From contig NZ_OLMM01000004.1 of assembly GCF_900291475.1 (NCBI RefSeq), positions 386,029 through 428,116 of the forward strand: a stretch of 42,088 nt of DNA, read 5' to 3'. Both the position numbers and the translations under genes were made by a program. Shown here in pieces: positions 3,676 to 26,801 of the stretch. The number at the start of each line of letters is the position of its first letter. Positions within the stretch are counted from its first letter, which is position 1. Below the pieces are notes generated by a model, which searched no databases, was not told the origin of the DNA, and saw nothing but the letters and a program-made list of their open reading frames with translations. This DNA is from Acidaminococcus hominis. Lineage in GTDB: Bacteria; Bacillota; Negativicutes; Acidaminococcales; Acidaminococcaceae.

Positions 3676-5439
3676 TTATTTCTTTACGAAAGTGTCAAAT
3701 TCTCTAATGGCTCTAGGAAGAAGCATTTGATGGAACGGGCAAATCGATTCAGGGTTCTGATATGCAGCTTCCGTAAATGCTTCTACATAGCCGCGCAGAG
3801 CCGTCATGTCAACGATTTCGTCAACCAGACCCAATTCAGCGCACACTTTCGGACGAGATTTCGTATGGAAAGCCTGGATCAGATCGTTCATCTTGTCGAT
3901 GGTCGGCTGCAAATCCTTACCAGCTTTTCTGTCCTTCGCCAGTCTCCGGGAGTACATAGCGGTAGCAGCGGTTTCACCGTTCATTACGTAGATTTCCGTT
4001 GCAGCAGTACCAATGGAGAATGCGTTGGTGTCGTTGCCCTGAGGTCCACCCAATACGTAATGGGCTGCAGCAGAACCTTTTCTCAGGGTAATTTCAAATT
4101 GAGGAACATGGGAGGTCTGGATGGAATAAATCAGGGATTGGCCCAAGCCCAGCAATTCAGCTTTTTCAGCGTCGTTGCCTACATCAATACCGGTGGTATC
4201 CTGAACCCAAACGATGGGCAAACGGTCTCTGGCGCACAGCGTCACAAACTCGTTCATTTTTACCAGGCCCTGACGGTACAGCTTGCCGCCCATACCAACG
4301 GAGCCGGCAGCCTTGTATTCAGGGTAATTCATCAGCAGGCCTTGTACGTTGGCAACAACGCCAACCAGCAGGCCGTTGACTTTGGCCATACCAGTAATCA
4401 TTTCGGGGCCATAGCCCTTCTTGTATTCCTTCAGTTCGCTGTTATCGAACAGACGACCCAGAACATTGTAGATATCGTAGGCTCTCTTGTCATTCAGAGG
4501 AACCATGCTGTACAGGTCTTCGCTGGGCAGAGCCGGAGCTTTGGGATCGTCAACGCGGAAGAATTCCGGGTTGTAGCTGGGCAGCATACCGATATACTTT
4601 TTGATACCTTCCAGAACGCCTTCTTCGGAAGCATAAACTTCGCGCATGAAGCCGGTTTCCGTAAAGTGGATATCAACAGCTCCAGGGGGTTCTTGCTTGC
4701 CGCTGCGGTCTACCATGTCAGCAATCTGGTTAGCGCCTTCCATGTCAATGTAGCCTTTGGGGTTCATGCCGCCCAAAATGCCGGCGCCGCCTACTGCCAT
4801 GTTGGCCTTTTCATGGGCAATCAGGACAGTGGGGCTGATGCTGTGGTAACCGCCGCCAGCAGGGTTGGTACCATAGATGCCGACGATTACGGGAACACCC
4901 AGTTGGTTCAGTTCAGCGTTTCTGAAGAACGGGGTGCCGCCGCCGCGGCGGTTCGGATAAACTTTTTCCTGCTCGTCGAATTTAACGCCGGAGCAGTTCA
5001 GCACATACACCAGGGGAATGTGCAGGGTTTTTGCGGTGTCGGAAGCACGCAGCAGGCATTCAGCCTGGCCAGGTACCCAAGCGCCGGCCAGCTTCTTGTT
5101 ATCGGAAGCGACCACAACAGCCCATTTGCCGTTGATTTTGCCCAGGCCCTTAACGATGCTTACGGAACCGTTTTTGTTGCCTTCCGGGTTGAACAAGGAG
5201 TTCAGCGGTCTCCAGGTGCCCGGTTCTACCAGTTTTTCCACTCTCTGCAGGGCGGTCAATTGACCGGATGCATTCAGGGATTCGGTGGAACGGCCTGCAT
5301 CTTCAGCAGCTTTCACCAATTGGTGAATTTCTTCTTCGATGGCTTTCAGTTTGGCAGTATTGTCTTCGTCTACTTTTTTCAGCACCTTGCCGACTTGGGG
5401 CAGTTGTTGAAAATATCTAGGCATTGAATAGAAACCCAT
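3676..5439 (-). CDS. gcdA: Glutaconyl-CoA decarboxylase, carboxyltransferase alpha subunit
   Basis: 587 residues, the same length as A. fermentans GcdA. It moves CO2 from glutaconyl-CoA to the biotin on GcdC; GcdB then decarboxylates carboxybiotin and exports Na+. Two crotonase-like carboxyltransferase halves are present, with glycine-rich oxyanion-hole segments such as GTNPAGGGYHSISP in the N half and GGPQGNDTNAFS in the C half. The start MGFYSMPRYF follows GGGAGGAAT. The other three subunits (gcdD, gcdC, gcdB) are 16 kb away in their own operon, so the pump is assembled from two transcripts. Confidence 0.97.
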   Translation of the reverse strand: MGFYSMPRYFQQLPQVGKVLKKVDEDNTAKLKAIEEEIHQLVKAAEDAGRSTESLNASGQLTALQRVEKLVEPGTWRPLNSLFNPEGNKNGSVSIVKGLGKINGKWAVVVASDNKKLAGAWVPGQAECLLRASDTAKTLHIPLVYVLNCSGVKFDEQEKVYPNRRGGGTPFFRNAELNQLGVPVIVGIYGTNPAGGGYHSISPTVLIAHEKANMAVGGAGILGGMNPKGYIDMEGANQIADMVDRSGKQEPPGAVDIHFTETGFMREVYASEEGVLEGIKKYIGMLPSYNPEFFRVDDPKAPALPSEDLYSMVPLNDKRAYDIYNVLGRLFDNSELKEYKKGYGPEMITGMAKVNGLLVGVVANVQGLLMNYPEYKAAGSVGMGGKLYRQGLVKMNEFVTLCARDRLPIVWVQDTTGIDVGNDAEKAELLGLGQSLIYSIQTSHVPQFEITLRKGSAAAHYVLGGPQGNDTNAFSIGTAATEIYVMNGETAATAMYSRRLAKDRKAGKDLQPTIDKMNDLIQAFHTKSRPKVCAELGLVDEIVDMTALRGYVEAFTEAAYQNPESICPFHQMLLPRAIREFDTFVKK

Positions 5440-21225: not shown

Positions 21226-22356
21226 TTATTGTGCAGGTCCAATCATTGCCAGCATGGTACCAGCAGCAACTGCCGTACCAATTACACCAGCCACGTTGGG
21301 GCCCATAGCATGCATCAGCAGGAAGTTGCCAGGGTTGGCCTGTTGTCCCACAATCTGGGAAACACGGGCAGCCATAGGCACTGCGGATACACCGGCACTG
21401 CCGATCAGCGGGTTGGTCTTGCCACCGTCAACGATGCACATCAGTTTACCGAAGATAACGCCAACAGCAGTACCACCGGCGAAAGCAACCAGGCCCAAGA
21501 AGATAATCAGCAGGGTTTGGGTGGTCAGGAAGCTTTCAGACTTCATGGTCAAACCAGTACCAGTAGCCAGCATAATGGTAACCGTGTTCATCAAAGCATT
21601 TTGTGCGGTATCGGACAGACGGTCCATACAGCCGGATTCAGTGAACAGGTTGCCCAGCATCAGCATACCGATCAGAGAGCAAACGGAGGGCAGCAGCAGG
21701 GAGATGAAAATGGTGCACATAATCGGGAAAACCACTTTTTCGAAGTGGGTTACCGTACGCAGCTGAGCCATTTTGATCTGACGGTCTTTCTTGGTGGTGA
21801 ACAGCTTCATGATAGGAGGCTGAATCAGGGGAACCAAGGACATGTAGGAGTAAGCAGCTACAGCGATTGCGCCCAGCAGATGGGGAGCCATCTTGGTTGC
21901 CAGGTAAATGGAAGTCGGGCCGTCAGCACCACCGATGATGCCGATAGCAGCAGCTTCACGCACGTTGAAGCCCAGCAGCATTGCACCCAGCAGGGCAACG
22001 AATACGCCGGCCTGGGCAGCTGCGCCCAGGAGCAGGGTTTTGGGGTTGGCAATCAGGGGACCGAAGTCGGTCATGGCGCCTACGCCCATGAAAATCAGCG
22101 GCGGGAATACTTCGTATTTGATACCGCCCAGGATCAATTGCATTACACCAGGATCGGTTTCGAAACCGGTGCGGGGTACGTTAGCCAGCAGGCAGCCGAA
22201 CGCAATCGGGGTCAGCAGCAACGGCTCGAAACCCTTTACGATTGCCAGATACAGCAGGACACAGCCTACCAGCATCATGATGGCATTGCCTGTGGTAAAA
22301 GCCACGAAGCCGCTGTCGTTGATGACAGAAGCAAGGGCTACCAGAAAAGCATCCAT
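21226..22356 (-). CDS. gcdB: Glutaconyl-CoA decarboxylase, Na+-pumping beta subunit
   Basis: 376 residues, very hydrophobic, with about 11 membrane segments. GcdB decarboxylates carboxybiotin on GcdC and couples this to Na+ export. The family segment IIGGADGPTSIYLA (about 140-153) contains the conserved aspartate implicated in Na+ binding in the oxaloacetate decarboxylase homologue. Cys243 (SGCMDRL), which Na+ protected from alkylation in A. fermentans, is present at the same number. The ATG follows AAGGAGG. Last gene of gcdD-gcdC-gcdB; shared use with the MmdA-like subunit is possible. Confidence 0.97.
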   Translation of the reverse strand: MDAFLVALASVINDSGFVAFTTGNAIMMLVGCVLLYLAIVKGFEPLLLTPIAFGCLLANVPRTGFETDPGVMQLILGGIKYEVFPPLIFMGVGAMTDFGPLIANPKTLLLGAAAQAGVFVALLGAMLLGFNVREAAAIGIIGGADGPTSIYLATKMAPHLLGAIAVAAYSYMSLVPLIQPPIMKLFTTKKDRQIKMAQLRTVTHFEKVVFPIMCTIFISLLLPSVCSLIGMLMLGNLFTESGCMDRLSDTAQNALMNTVTIMLATGTGLTMKSESFLTTQTLLIIFLGLVAFAGGTAVGVIFGKLMCIVDGGKTNPLIGSAGVSAVPMAARVSQIVGQQANPGNFLLMHAMGPNVAGVIGTAVAAGTMLAMIGPAQ

Positions 22357-22393: not shown

Positions 22394-22825
22394 TTAGAGA
22401 ATTACCATTACGTCGCCAGTAGCAACGGTGTCACCAGCGTTTACGCGAACGTCGGTAACGGTGCCATCTTCAGGAGCCATAATTTCATTCTGCATTTTCA
22501 TGGCTTCCAGAATCAGCAGGACATCGCCAGCTTCAACTTTGTCGCCAGGTTTAACGTTTACGGACAGAACCTTACCAGGCATAGGAGCTTCGATGGTGTT
22601 GGCACCAGCAGGAGCAGCCGGGGCAGCAGCAGGAGAGGGAGCAGCGGCAGGAGCCGGAGCAGGAGCAGCAGCAGGAGCAGCAGGAGCGGCTACAGGAGCA
22701 GCAGCTACAGGAGCAGCAGCGGCAGGAGCAGCAGGAGCAGCAGGAGCTGCGCTTACAGTACCGCCAACTTCTTCAACTTCCACTTGGTATACAGTGCCAT
22801 TTACGTTAACATTGAACTTTTTCAT
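22394..22825 (-). CDS. gcdC: Glutaconyl-CoA decarboxylase, biotin carrier gamma subunit
   Basis: 143 residues. A short N-terminal domain (1-23), a flexible Ala/Pro linker (about 24-75) made almost only of Ala, Pro and a few Val and Ser, and a C-terminal biotinyl domain with the attachment site EAMKM, Lys110. The swinging biotin carries CO2 from GcdA to GcdB. A. fermentans GcdC has the same Ala/Pro linker. The GC-rich repeats in the DNA at 22600-22750 come from this linker and could cause slippage and length variation. The site GAGGAGGG precedes the ATG. Confidence 0.96.
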   Translation of the reverse strand: MKKFNVNVNGTVYQVEVEEVGGTVSAAPAAPAAPAAAAPVAAAPVAAPAAPAAAPAPAPAAAPSPAAAPAAPAGANTIEAPMPGKVLSVNVKPGDKVEAGDVLLILEAMKMQNEIMAPEDGTVTDVRVNAGDTVATGDVMVIL

Positions 22826-23229: not shown

Positions 23230-23468
23230 CTCGCTTTCCTCTAAATGGAAAAAATGGTTTATATCAAAATCCCAGCGGAACGGATGCTTTTGCTTGGCAA
23301 ATTGCTTCCCGCTTCGATTTCAACATACAAACAAGCAGCACGCTGCGAAAACCAAGGTAGAGAGAGATGAGTAGCGCCGCGGGCGATTGGCCCGTATGCG
23401 GCTCATGAGCCTCTAGAAACTGCAGCTGAAGGGCAGTCTAGACACTGCATTTGAATTGTGTAGACAGG
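23230..23468 (-). other. Spacer between the 39-codon gene and gcdD, with hairpins
   Basis: 239 bases with no further gene. A bulged hairpin (TCTAG and ACTGC on one side, GCAGT and CTAGA on the other) lies at about 23412-23443, and a small CGGGC/GCCCG hairpin at about 23380-23394. Neither is followed by a U tract on the minus strand, so they look like RNA stability or processing elements rather than terminators. Literature on A. fermentans places the gcdDCB promoter in this region; the TATAAA at about 23260 has no convincing -35. Confidence 0.45.
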
Positions 23469-23588
23469 TTATTTTTTCTTCGTTGGATCGATTGCATGGA
23501 CAAGGGTCATCATAATGCCCAACACAATCAGCACGCCAAAAACAATCGTCAGATTGATGGCTGCAATAAGCAACGGATTCTCTGTCAT
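23469..23588 (-). CDS. 39-residue GcdD-like membrane anchor peptide
   Basis: A tiny gene too short for most ORF callers. ATG at 23586-23588 follows GAGGTGAGG. The peptide starts MTENPLLIAAINLTIVFG and ends DPTKKK followed directly by TAA. It matches residues 1-39 of GcdD at 31 of 39 positions, and its ribosome-site region also resembles that of gcdD, so the copy includes the leader. It has only the membrane helix and basic end, and lacks the linker and C-terminal part thought to bind the carboxyltransferase. It lies between mmdA and gcdD, the position of mmdE in Veillonella. That epsilon subunit (55 residues) is reported to match the other end of the delta chain. Substitutions are conservative, which suggests it is expressed. 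Confidence 0.8.
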   Translation of the reverse strand: MTENPLLIAAINLTIVFGVLIVLGIMMTLVHAIDPTKKK

Positions 23589-23646
23589 TACCTCACCTCT
23601 CTTTCCTCTTGGTCGTTTTGTGGGTCAAGGGGTGCGCAGCACCAAA

Positions 23647-25173
23647 TTACAGCGGGATATTGCCGTGCTTTTTCTTAGGACGGTCTTCCTGCTTGCTCTT
23701 GAGCATGCGCAATGCTTTAATCAGGGTAGGACGGGTGGTCTTCGGTTCGATGACCATTTCCACCATACCATGCTTAGCAGCATAATAAGGGGTAGCGAAG
23801 TTGTTGATGTATTCTTCCGTCTTCTGTTCCACATCGGGATCATGACGGAAAATAATCTTGGCAGCGCCTTGGGGTCCCATTACGGCAATTTCTGCCGTGG
23901 GCCAGGCGATAACGTGATCGGCACCCAGGTCTTGGGCACACATGGCCAGATATGCGCCGCCGTAAGCTTTCCGGGTTACCAGGGTAATCTTGGGAACGGT
24001 TGCTTCACAGTAGGCGTACAGCATTTTGGCACCGTGGCGGATAATGCCGCCGTATTCTTGGTCCGTACCGGGCAGGAACCCAGGCACGTCCACGATGTTG
24101 ATCAGGGGAATCCGGAACGCATCGCAGAAACGGATGAAGCGGGCAGCCTTATCCGAAGCGTTGATGTCCAGGCAGCCGGCCATAATCCGGGGCTGGTTGG
24201 CAATGATGCCCACCGTAGAGCCGTCCAGACGGGCCAGGCAGGTGATGATGTTCCGGGCATACATCCGGTGGGGTTCCACATACTCCCCATTATCCACAAT
24301 GCTACGGATAACCTTGTACATATCGTAGGGCAGGTGGGAACCATCGGGGATGATGGTGTTCAGGGACTCATCCATCCGGAAAGCGCTGTCGCCGGTGTCG
24401 TACACAGGCGGGTTTTCCCGGTTGTTGGAAGGCAGGAAACTCAGCAGGTACCGGATCTGTTCCAGGCAGTCTGCATCGTTTTCGGCCGCAAAATCAGCTA
24501 CGCCAGAGCGGGTGCTGTGGGTAAAGGTACCACCCAGGTCTTCCTGGCCCACATCCTCGCCGGTAACGGATTTCACCACTTCCGGTCCGGTAATGAACAT
24601 CTTGGAGCTTTTCTTCACCATGTAGATGAAGTCCGTCAGGGCCGGGCTGTACACGGCGCCGCCGGCACAGGGTCCCATGATGGCGGAAATCTGGGGGATT
24701 ACCCCGGAGGACATGGTATTCTGCTTGAACATCTTACCAAAGCCTGCCAGGGCATCCGTGGCTTCCTGAATGCGGGCACCGCCGGAATCGGCCATGCCCA
24801 CAATGGGAGCTCCAGTTTTTAAAGCCATTTCTTGAACTTTTGCAATTTTATTGGCGTGCATTTCGCCCAAAGAGCCACCTTCTACGGTGAAATCCTGTGC
24901 GAAAACAAATACTGTGCGACCGTTAACCGTGCCATAACCAGTTACTACACCGTCTCCAGCCAGATATTTCTTTTCCTGTCCGAAATTGGTGCACCGGTGT
25001 TCTACGAATTTATCCAGTTCCACGAAACTGCCTTCATCCAAAAATGCGGCAATCCGTTCCCGGGCAGTCATTTTGCCAGAGTCATGCTGCTTGCCGACTC
25101 TCTTGGCACCGCCGCCGGCTTCGATTTTTTCGTAGCGGGCAAACATATCATCGATTTTTTCTTGTGTTGTCAA
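23647..25173 (-). CDS. mmdA: Methylmalonyl-CoA decarboxylase / propionyl-CoA carboxylase type carboxyltransferase alpha subunit (TTG start)
   Basis: 508 residues from a TTG at 25171-25173, 7 bases after GAGGAGGTG; a frame reaching 25191 has no site. The protein is very close to Veillonella MmdA as I remember it, including GEMHANKIAKVQ, DSGGARIQEA, the GPCAGGAVYSPALTDF oxyanion segment, RKAYGGAYLAMC and the identical C-terminus KKHGNIPL. It would move CO2 from (S)-methylmalonyl-CoA to biotin. With GcdD, GcdC and GcdB downstream it could form a Na+-pumping methylmalonyl-CoA decarboxylase. In A. fermentans a corresponding gene fragment was found, but no activity was detected. Confidence 0.88.
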   Translation of the reverse strand: MTTQEKIDDMFARYEKIEAGGGAKRVGKQHDSGKMTARERIAAFLDEGSFVELDKFVEHRCTNFGQEKKYLAGDGVVTGYGTVNGRTVFVFAQDFTVEGGSLGEMHANKIAKVQEMALKTGAPIVGMADSGGARIQEATDALAGFGKMFKQNTMSSGVIPQISAIMGPCAGGAVYSPALTDFIYMVKKSSKMFITGPEVVKSVTGEDVGQEDLGGTFTHSTRSGVADFAAENDADCLEQIRYLLSFLPSNNRENPPVYDTGDSAFRMDESLNTIIPDGSHLPYDMYKVIRSIVDNGEYVEPHRMYARNIITCLARLDGSTVGIIANQPRIMAGCLDINASDKAARFIRFCDAFRIPLINIVDVPGFLPGTDQEYGGIIRHGAKMLYAYCEATVPKITLVTRKAYGGAYLAMCAQDLGADHVIAWPTAEIAVMGPQGAAKIIFRHDPDVEQKTEEYINNFATPYYAAKHGMVEMVIEPKTTRPTLIKALRMLKSKQEDRPKKKHGNIPL

Positions 25174-25277: not shown

Positions 25278-26801
25278 TTACTTCACTTCCATGGTGCCAG
25301 TTTTCAGTAGACGTTCATGGAAGGAGAACGCTTCTTCCAGGATGTGCGGGGTCTGGCTGTTATGGCAGGCTACGCAGGCCCGTTCAAAGTAATCCTTCAG
25401 CAGGGGCTGGTATTTGGGGTTGGCAATCTTGTCGATGATGATGGGTGCTCTTTCTTTCGGGGACAGGCCGCGCAGGTCGGCAACGCCCCGTTCGGAAACG
25501 ATAATGTCCACATCGTGTTCGGTGCTGTCGATATGGGAGCAGAAGGGAACCACGGAGCTGATCTTGCCGCCCTTGGCCATGCTGTTGGTAAAGAATACCG
25601 TCAGGTAGCCGTTTCTGGCAAAGTCACCGCTGCCGCCGATACCGTTCATGATGTTGGTGCCGCAGATGTGGGAGGAGTTGATGTTGCCGTAGATATCGCA
25701 TTCAATGGCGGTGTTCATAGCAATAACGCCCAAACGGCGCAACACTTCCGGGTTGTTGGAAATTTCCTGCGGACGCAGGATCAGGTGTTTCTTATATTTG
25801 TCAAAGTTCTTGTACAGTTTTTCCATATACGGAGCGGACGGGGTCAGGGAAGCGCCAGAAGCCACTCTCAGCTTGCCGGCATCAATCAGGTCGAACATCC
25901 CGTCTTGGATAACTTCCGTAAATACGGTCAGGTCCTCAAAATCGGAGTTTACCAGGCCGTTGATAACAGCATTGGCTACAGAGCCTACGCCGGATTGCAG
26001 CGGCAGCAGGTTCTTGGGCAGACGGCCGGCCTTGACTTCTGCCTTGAAGAAGTCTACCAGGTTCTGGCCCATAGCCCGGGCATCGTCGTCTACGGCAGAC
26101 AATTTGCTGGGTTTATCCGGAATGTCGCAGGGAACAATGGCCGCTACCTTGTCCAGGTCGCAGGGAATGTACGGAGTACCAATCAAATCTTCCGGCTTTT
26201 CAATGGGGATGATTTTCCGGTACGGAGGATCCAGGGGAACGTAGCAGTCATGCATACCTTCCAATTCCACCGGCTGGGTCACATTGACTTCGATGATGAC
26301 CTTCTTGGCGCTCTGCACATAGCCGCAGCTGCCGCCCAGGCTGGTGGTGGGGATGATGCCGATTTTGCCCTTGCCCAGGTCTTTGATGGCGCAGGCTTCA
26401 ATAATGGCCACATCGACATCCCGGCGTTCCGGCAGGAAGCCAAAGCGAGCCAATTGGTTGAAATGGCTGATGTGGGCATCCACGTATTTAATTTGGCCAT
26501 TATTGATGGCATTCCGGCAGGTCTTGTCGGTTTGGTACGGCATACGGTTGCCTACAATACCGGCGTTGACCATTTCCGTATCGATTTCCGGACCAGCTAA
26601 TACCGTCCATACGTTAACCTTGAAGGGTTCCTTCTTGCCTCTTTCCGCCAGAGCCAAGGGCAGTGCCTTGGGATAGCCGGAGGGCGTGAAACCGCTCATG
26701 CCCAGGTTCATGCCATCTTGGATAATTTCGGCGGCTTTTTCAGCCGTGGTGATTTTGCTCAGTGCTGCTGCACAATGGACTCGATCGTTAATATTGATCA
26801 T
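25278..26801 (-). CDS. Acetyl-CoA hydrolase/transferase family CoA-transferase (succinyl-CoA:acetate type)
   Basis: 507 residues from the ATG at 26799-26801, which follows GGGAGGAAT; the open frame extends to 26903 without a better site. The fold shows the two CoA-transferase halves. The catalytic glutamate is expected at Glu296 in VFTEVIQDGMF, and the nearby GVGSVANAV and GIGGSGDFARNGY segments are typical of the AarC/Cat1 class that moves CoA between succinyl-CoA (or butyryl-CoA) and acetate. The exact substrate cannot be told from sequence. Neighbouring mmdA hints at succinate/propionate chemistry, but an acetate-butyrate role is also plausible in this fermenter. Confidence 0.85.
   Translation of the reverse strand: MININDRVHCAAALSKITTAEKAAEIIQDGMNLGMSGFTPSGYPKALPLALAERGKKEPFKVNVWTVLAGPEIDTEMVNAGIVGNRMPYQTDKTCRNAINNGQIKYVDAHISHFNQLARFGFLPERRDVDVAIIEACAIKDLGKGKIGIIPTTSLGGSCGYVQSAKKVIIEVNVTQPVELEGMHDCYVPLDPPYRKIIPIEKPEDLIGTPYIPCDLDKVAAIVPCDIPDKPSKLSAVDDDARAMGQNLVDFFKAEVKAGRLPKNLLPLQSGVGSVANAVINGLVNSDFEDLTVFTEVIQDGMFDLIDAGKLRVASGASLTPSAPYMEKLYKNFDKYKKHLILRPQEISNNPEVLRRLGVIAMNTAIECDIYGNINSSHICGTNIMNGIGGSGDFARNGYLTVFFTNSMAKGGKISSVVPFCSHIDSTEHDVDIIVSERGVADLRGLSPKERAPIIIDKIANPKYQPLLKDYFERACVACHNSQTPHILEEAFSFHERLLKTGTMEVK

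Follow-up and report, generated by a model that had tools for sequence, protein, structure and literature searches.

The locus considered here raises the question of why the operon of a biotin-dependent Na+ pump should contain a truncated second copy of one of its own subunits. The window, a stretch of 42,088 nt, comes from an Acidaminococcus species of the gut and carries, all on the minus strand, a succinate CoA-transferase gene, alpha, a 39-codon reading frame, a spacer, delta, gamma and beta, in that order (Table 1). The short frame, referred to below as mini-delta, repeats the head of delta. We consider it to be a partial duplicate of delta, and give about even chances to its having been kept as an anchor-only subunit of the pump.

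Table 1. Positions in the window of mini-delta and of the features around it, in order of transcription, with the evidence for each.
Feature	Position	Strand	Evidence
Succinate CoA-transferase-type gene, upstream of alpha	25278..26795	-	TIGR03458 5e-210
Alpha, Mmd-type carboxyltransferase, TTG start likely	23647..25173	-	Profile searches
Mini-delta leader and ribosome site	23589..23610	-	Sequence
Mini-delta, 39-aa anchor-only delta paralogue	23469..23588	-	ORF, alignment, BLASTP and OAD_gamma profile
Spacer part of unknown origin	23329..23468	-	No alpha-tail match, no Rfam family, folding like shuffles
Decayed alpha 3' end and ancestral alpha-delta intergenic stretch	23251..23328	-	Genus DNA search and local alignment
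Candidate extended -10 element TGATATAAA of a putative delta-gamma-beta promoter	23258..23266	-	Inferred; TGATTTTGATATAA in 8/8 relatives
Delta, full-length, 108 aa	22894..23220	-	OAD_gamma 8.7e-14
Gamma, biotin carrier	22394..22825	-	Biotin_lipoyl 3.2e-23
Beta, carboxybiotin decarboxylase/Na+ pump	21226..22356	-	OAD_beta 5.5e-153; PDB 6iva E 2.8e-117

The frame is intact, running over 39 codons from ATG to TAA and preceded by AGAGGAAAGAGAGGTGAGGTA-ATG, which bears out the sequence-only reading of a complete small gene with a good ribosome site. The peptide is identical to residues 1-39 of the delta of its own operon at 31 of 39 positions, as that reading had also held, and the DNA at 87 of 117 nt; with a match of this extent a chance ORF is far off, and that candidate was ruled out. 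BLASTP against delta returns a local alignment with 28/36 identities (E 2e-19). The claim that the leader had been copied too stands for the ribosome-site stretch, whereas further upstream the two genes have different sequences. Nothing delta-like follows the stop, again as claimed: a search with full-length delta reached residue 59 only by reading through the TAA (58% overall identity).

The copied part is the N-terminal membrane-helix region, covering positions 2-37 of the 76 in OAD_gamma (PF04277; E 9e-5). Mini-delta stops after residue 39 with the C-terminus DPTKKK, and lacks both the cytoplasmic linker and the alpha-binding C-terminal region. Being a half-length piece of delta, it scores below the curated cut-offs of PF04277 (23.5 against 27 bits), TIGR01195 (29.6 against 36.05) and NF047902 (55.1 against 150; E 7.6e-15). 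Two conserved positions are altered, and this had been missed by the earlier reading: position 6 is L, where 29 of 29 other delta heads have W or F, and position 13 is L, where 28 of 29 have M. The comparison heads come from loci collected by a protein search independent of the pattern INM[TA][IV]VF[GA].

The sequence downstream of mini-delta points to how the copy came about. From the mini-delta stop to delta the spacer measures about 250 nt; in eight relatives from the genus the gap between alpha and delta is roughly 50-60 nt. Over its first 150 nt this spacer shows no homology to the alpha tail (local score 8.7, with 189 of 200 shuffles equally high). Its last 100 nt align to the alpha 3' end and alpha-delta intergenic stretch of the eight relatives with a mean local score of 39.0, against 10.1 (sd 1.0) for dinucleotide shuffles, none of which reached 39.0 in 200 trials; against the intact alpha tail of the same operon the score is 20.5. 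A genus-wide DNA search matched positions 23251-23328 to five relatives at 74-76%, and to three more in shorter pieces. In the alignment this copy of the alpha tail has lost its reading frame and its stop codon. The end of the spacer is a broken alpha tail with its intergenic stretch, and therefore the segment composed of alpha tail, intergenic stretch and delta head is present twice. Full delta has therefore retained the ancestral alpha-delta junction, and the segment's other copy is that of intact alpha and mini-delta. This decayed tail, the mark of a partial operon duplication, had likewise escaped the earlier reading.

The duplicated segment also seems to hold regulatory information. Among seven relatives (G007, a near copy of G008, was excluded from the alpha-constraint set, as from the tree and codon-model sets), the lowest pS of the 484 windows of alpha, 0.369, is that of its last 25 codons. 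The gene as a whole stands at 0.613, the value expected for the same amino acids as the last 25 codons is 0.611, and not one of 20000 random 25-codon sets was as low. Directly after this constrained tail, and starting at the alpha stop, TGATTTTGATATAA is found in all eight relatives. The window genome has lost the constraint in its intact alpha, where the last 25 codons show a pS of 0.80-1.00, against 0.53-0.71 over codons 1-483; its broken alpha tail retains GATTTTGATATAA. The alpha 3' end of the relatives thus probably holds the delta-gamma-beta promoter, which the window genome would carry on a separate copy. We infer the promoter from the silent-site constraint, since a consensus promoter scan did not report the candidate.

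Alpha scores 861.5 bits against TIGR01117 (methylmalonyl-CoA decarboxylase type), below the model cut-off of 998.8. A succinate CoA-transferase gene stands next to alpha in four of the eight relatives and not at that place in the other four. At about window positions 3724-5271, some 18 kb from delta-gamma-beta, there is another carboxyltransferase frame, 587 codons long; we take it to be GcdA, a protein of 587 residues. Because the window genome has two carboxyltransferase-domain genes, one full delta and two beta genes, the Mmd-type alpha and GcdA probably use its single full delta-gamma-beta set. A second beta gene is found in six of the nine genus genomes, and on another contig of the window genome (C7; locus L059, 1459-2782) an orphan beta is followed by a 53-aa protein that scores 23.6 bits against OadG_rel_small, just below the cut-off of 25. 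A tRNA scan gave nothing of use for the mini-delta question. In A. fermentans, gcdDCB is reported to make up a separate, second operon, at a distance of nearly 15 kb from that of gcdA (PMC3035267).

What a delta head could do without the rest of the subunit is suggested by the oxaloacetate decarboxylase (OAD) of Salmonella, whose beta and gamma chains assemble into a beta3-gamma3 hexamer (PMC7274780). Residues 2-43 of its gamma, the counterpart of delta, are visible and bound to beta, and the C-terminal tail binds alpha; removal of gamma residues 61-84 leaves beta-gamma binding in place and severely reduces alpha binding (PMC7274780). The delta/OadG small subunit has been described either as of unclear function or as a scaffold (PMC3035267; PMC7274780). 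Homology between the window beta and the beta chain of the OAD structure (PDB 6iva) is clear; among PDB sequences neither delta nor a mini-delta profile found a gamma chain by sequence. As mini-delta ends at position 37 of the 76 in OAD_gamma, the contact with beta should stay and that with alpha should be missing. Mini-delta is best read, by this analogy, as a beta-binding subunit that would be unable to dock alpha.

A mechanism may be proposed in three steps. In the first, which the sequence itself shows, a segment running from the alpha 3' end through the intergenic stretch into delta, as far as codon 39, is present in two copies: the upstream one has an unbroken end of alpha and the delta head that is mini-delta, and the downstream one has the broken alpha tail and the ancestral junction to full delta. 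In the second, suggested by the silent-site constraint, promoter copy and coding copy would have separated after the duplication, so that mini-delta would lie on the alpha transcript and delta-gamma-beta would have a start of their own. In the third, modelled on the published homologue and on the recurrence of such proteins, the mini-delta helix would pack on beta and take the place of delta in the beta trimer, but would lack the cytoplasmic tail by which alpha is held. If produced along with alpha, mini-delta might then complete or stabilise beta while leaving fewer docking arms for alpha.

The sequence-only reading was to be refuted by a frame that related genomes do not conserve. Inside the genus this is what is seen, with an extra delta head in one of nine genomes, that of the window, and one full-length delta in each of the nine; the architecture itself turns up independently elsewhere. 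A survey of named loci, based on the pattern INM[TA][IV]VF[GA] and for that reason biased towards M13, gave 91 delta-like rows in 78 loci: 63 of full length, 24 of mini length and four unusable (three running off a contig end and one five-residue fragment ahead of a stop). One of the 24 (L107, Veillonella caviae, 53 aa, with normal alpha, gamma and beta nearby) was set aside as a probable frameshift, leaving 23; L082 and L083 are near copies. A class-wide survey had a match in 212 of 299 genomes, a figure that is not a mini-delta frequency. Anchor-only deltas went unmentioned in the titles and abstract openings of the literature searched, mostly without subscription papers.

Most of these mini-deltas are associated with beta. 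Nineteen of the 23 precede it, 17 with beta no more than 1.5 kb downstream in the locus and two, cut by the locus end, in longer stretches; the other four stand alone, no alpha, gamma or beta having been found up to 1.5 kb away. Twenty end a few residues past D-P-T/S, and the window mini-delta shares the group's form, a closed frame of about 37-42 residues that ends just past the D-P motif. It departs from the group, where the next pump gene is beta or there is none, in its surroundings: in the window delta, gamma and beta follow. None of the 23 has alpha as the first pump gene met over 1.5 kb upstream, so that the position behind alpha is unique so far, which counts against a kept subunit. 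The solitary Acidaminococcaceae-type mini-deltas (L097, L103, L104 and L111, at about 3998-4120) differ by 0-1 amino-acid changes over 35 codons at a pS of 0.35-0.76, which points to strong selection on a free anchor. Near invariance here, and the recurrence of anchor-only deltas ahead of beta, support the reading of the window gene as a kept subunit.

The order found in the window, mini then full, is also present in a second, distant lineage. Megamonas sp. UBA1799 has five mini-deltas, each directly ahead of a second delta, which thus lies between mini-delta and beta; of these second deltas, three are full-length with closed frames, another continues over 245 residues and the last is truncated by the contig end. 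Two of these mini/full pairs, when compared, showed a pS of 0.65-0.67 and one amino-acid change. The Megamonas loci (L151 and L152) consist of repeated modules of a CitMHS-type transporter, mini-delta, second delta and beta, and no alpha or gamma was found in these stretches. Cassettes of mini-delta and beta adjoin extra beta genes in L041, L044, L045, L046, L048, L049 and L050; those of L041 and L050 also adjoin a CitMHS-type transporter, and those of L045 and L048 a sensor kinase and response regulator.

The main rival to an anchor-only subunit, and a possibility that we entertain tentatively, is that mini-delta is a relic, a delta head left behind by the duplication, which may still be translated from the alpha transcript but serves no purpose and is gradually decaying. 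Its presence in a single genus genome and the changes W6L and M13L, unique and at conserved positions, fit such a fate, and the adjacent copy of the alpha tail is plainly a relic. Yet next to that frame-broken copy the frame, start and ribosome site of mini-delta are intact. The substitution pattern points in the same direction: against its own delta, mini-delta is near silent saturation (pS 0.76) and yet has a pN of only 0.11, and against the deltas of the eight relatives pS is 0.53-0.84 and pN 0.09-0.18. A branch model gives omega of 0.02-0.03 for the mini-delta branch, which, like the intact frame, supports a kept subunit; neutrality of that branch is weakly rejected, with a 2dlnL of 3.8 (p 0.05) when placed beside its own delta and 4.9 (p 0.03) on the best tree, and this weakness leaves room for a relic. 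The strong conservation of anchor-only deltas elsewhere argues against one.

A further alternative touches only the origin, and would hold for a used and an unused piece alike: the alpha tail together with the delta head, or else all of alpha, might have been recombined in from an unsampled Acidaminococcus-like donor, the old alpha being lost save for its tail. The codon model keeps this idea alive, as it places mini-delta beside the delta of G006 in preference to its own by 4.4-4.6 lnL, and near silent saturation against its own delta is in keeping with it. We nevertheless regard import as unlikely. Alpha and beta of the window genome are similar in identity to each relative, and a tree of their aligned codons groups the genome with G003, G005 and G008. 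None of the eight relatives comes close to the intact alpha tail, whose pS of 0.85 to G006 ruled out a G006-like species as its donor. Mini-delta and its own delta, moreover, have M26 and T28 in common, both absent from the eight relatives, and duplication within the window lineage is favoured accordingly.

Control of delta-gamma-beta by translation of the short frame or by a spacer RNA, with an idle peptide, would suit a short same-strand frame upstream of delta but is most improbable and was rejected, because the spacer is no more stably folded than shuffled sequence (z -0.88), matches no Rfam family and has no terminator-like site on its coding strand in the scan, and because the peptide copies a structural helix.

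The anchor-only subunit is the reading carried forward here. The sequence-only reading had offered an alternative anchor, a competitor of delta or a structural subunit of the pump; these roles are partly supported, as they agree with the OAD structure and with anchor-only deltas that recur and are in part under selection. A wider proposal can be put forward with reserve: stand-alone anchor-only deltas of 37-42 residues may be a general part of biotin-dependent Na+ pumps in the Negativicutes, where beta trimers fitted with full delta, mini-delta or a mixture would set the number of docked carboxyltransferase arms, anywhere between complete pumps and membrane sectors devoid of alpha. The species of the window would have got there by an independent route, in which duplication of part of the operon also detached a promoter from the coding sequence with which it had overlapped. 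Natural anchor-only copies divide delta into a beta-binding and an alpha-binding half, and with the halves separated in nature both the sufficiency of the helix for beta and the tuning of docking stoichiometry become testable. The locus further offers an easily read example of the way in which a promoter may be released, through duplication, from overlapping coding sequence.

Among known proteins, OadG_rel_small (NF040909) is likewise short and anchor-like, but its model matched none of eight mini-deltas, the window one included, at E <= 1, nor the window mini-delta in a whole-genome search at E <= 10, and membership was ruled out; in 61 relatives four match at E <= 0.001 and none scores above the cut-off. 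The epsilon subunit of Veillonella methylmalonyl-CoA decarboxylase, MmdE, is a partial delta duplicate in the same kind of operon. The earlier reading was right that it copies the C-terminal part of delta (28/48 identical); its slot is not the equivalent one, since it lies between delta and gamma and not between alpha and delta, and as mini-delta copies the other half, the N-terminal one, the two are not equivalents. Free-standing mini-deltas of the Acidaminococcaceae, Megamonas and others have the same length as that of the window, most of them also ending just past D-P-T/S, and those of Megamonas share its place directly ahead of a delta. They stand ahead of beta or alone, several near a CitMHS-type transporter, whereas the window mini-delta stands behind alpha, and the 11 that were aligned with the window pair keep W/F6 and M13, unlike it. 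With the delta of GcdD/MmdD type (OadG family, PF04277) mini-delta shares the N-terminal helix region, the sequence motif and the operon, and it differs from that subunit in having neither linker nor C-terminal region and in its sub-threshold profile scores. Mini-delta is thus a new variant within the known delta/OadG subunit family, distinct from full delta, from MmdE and from NF040909.
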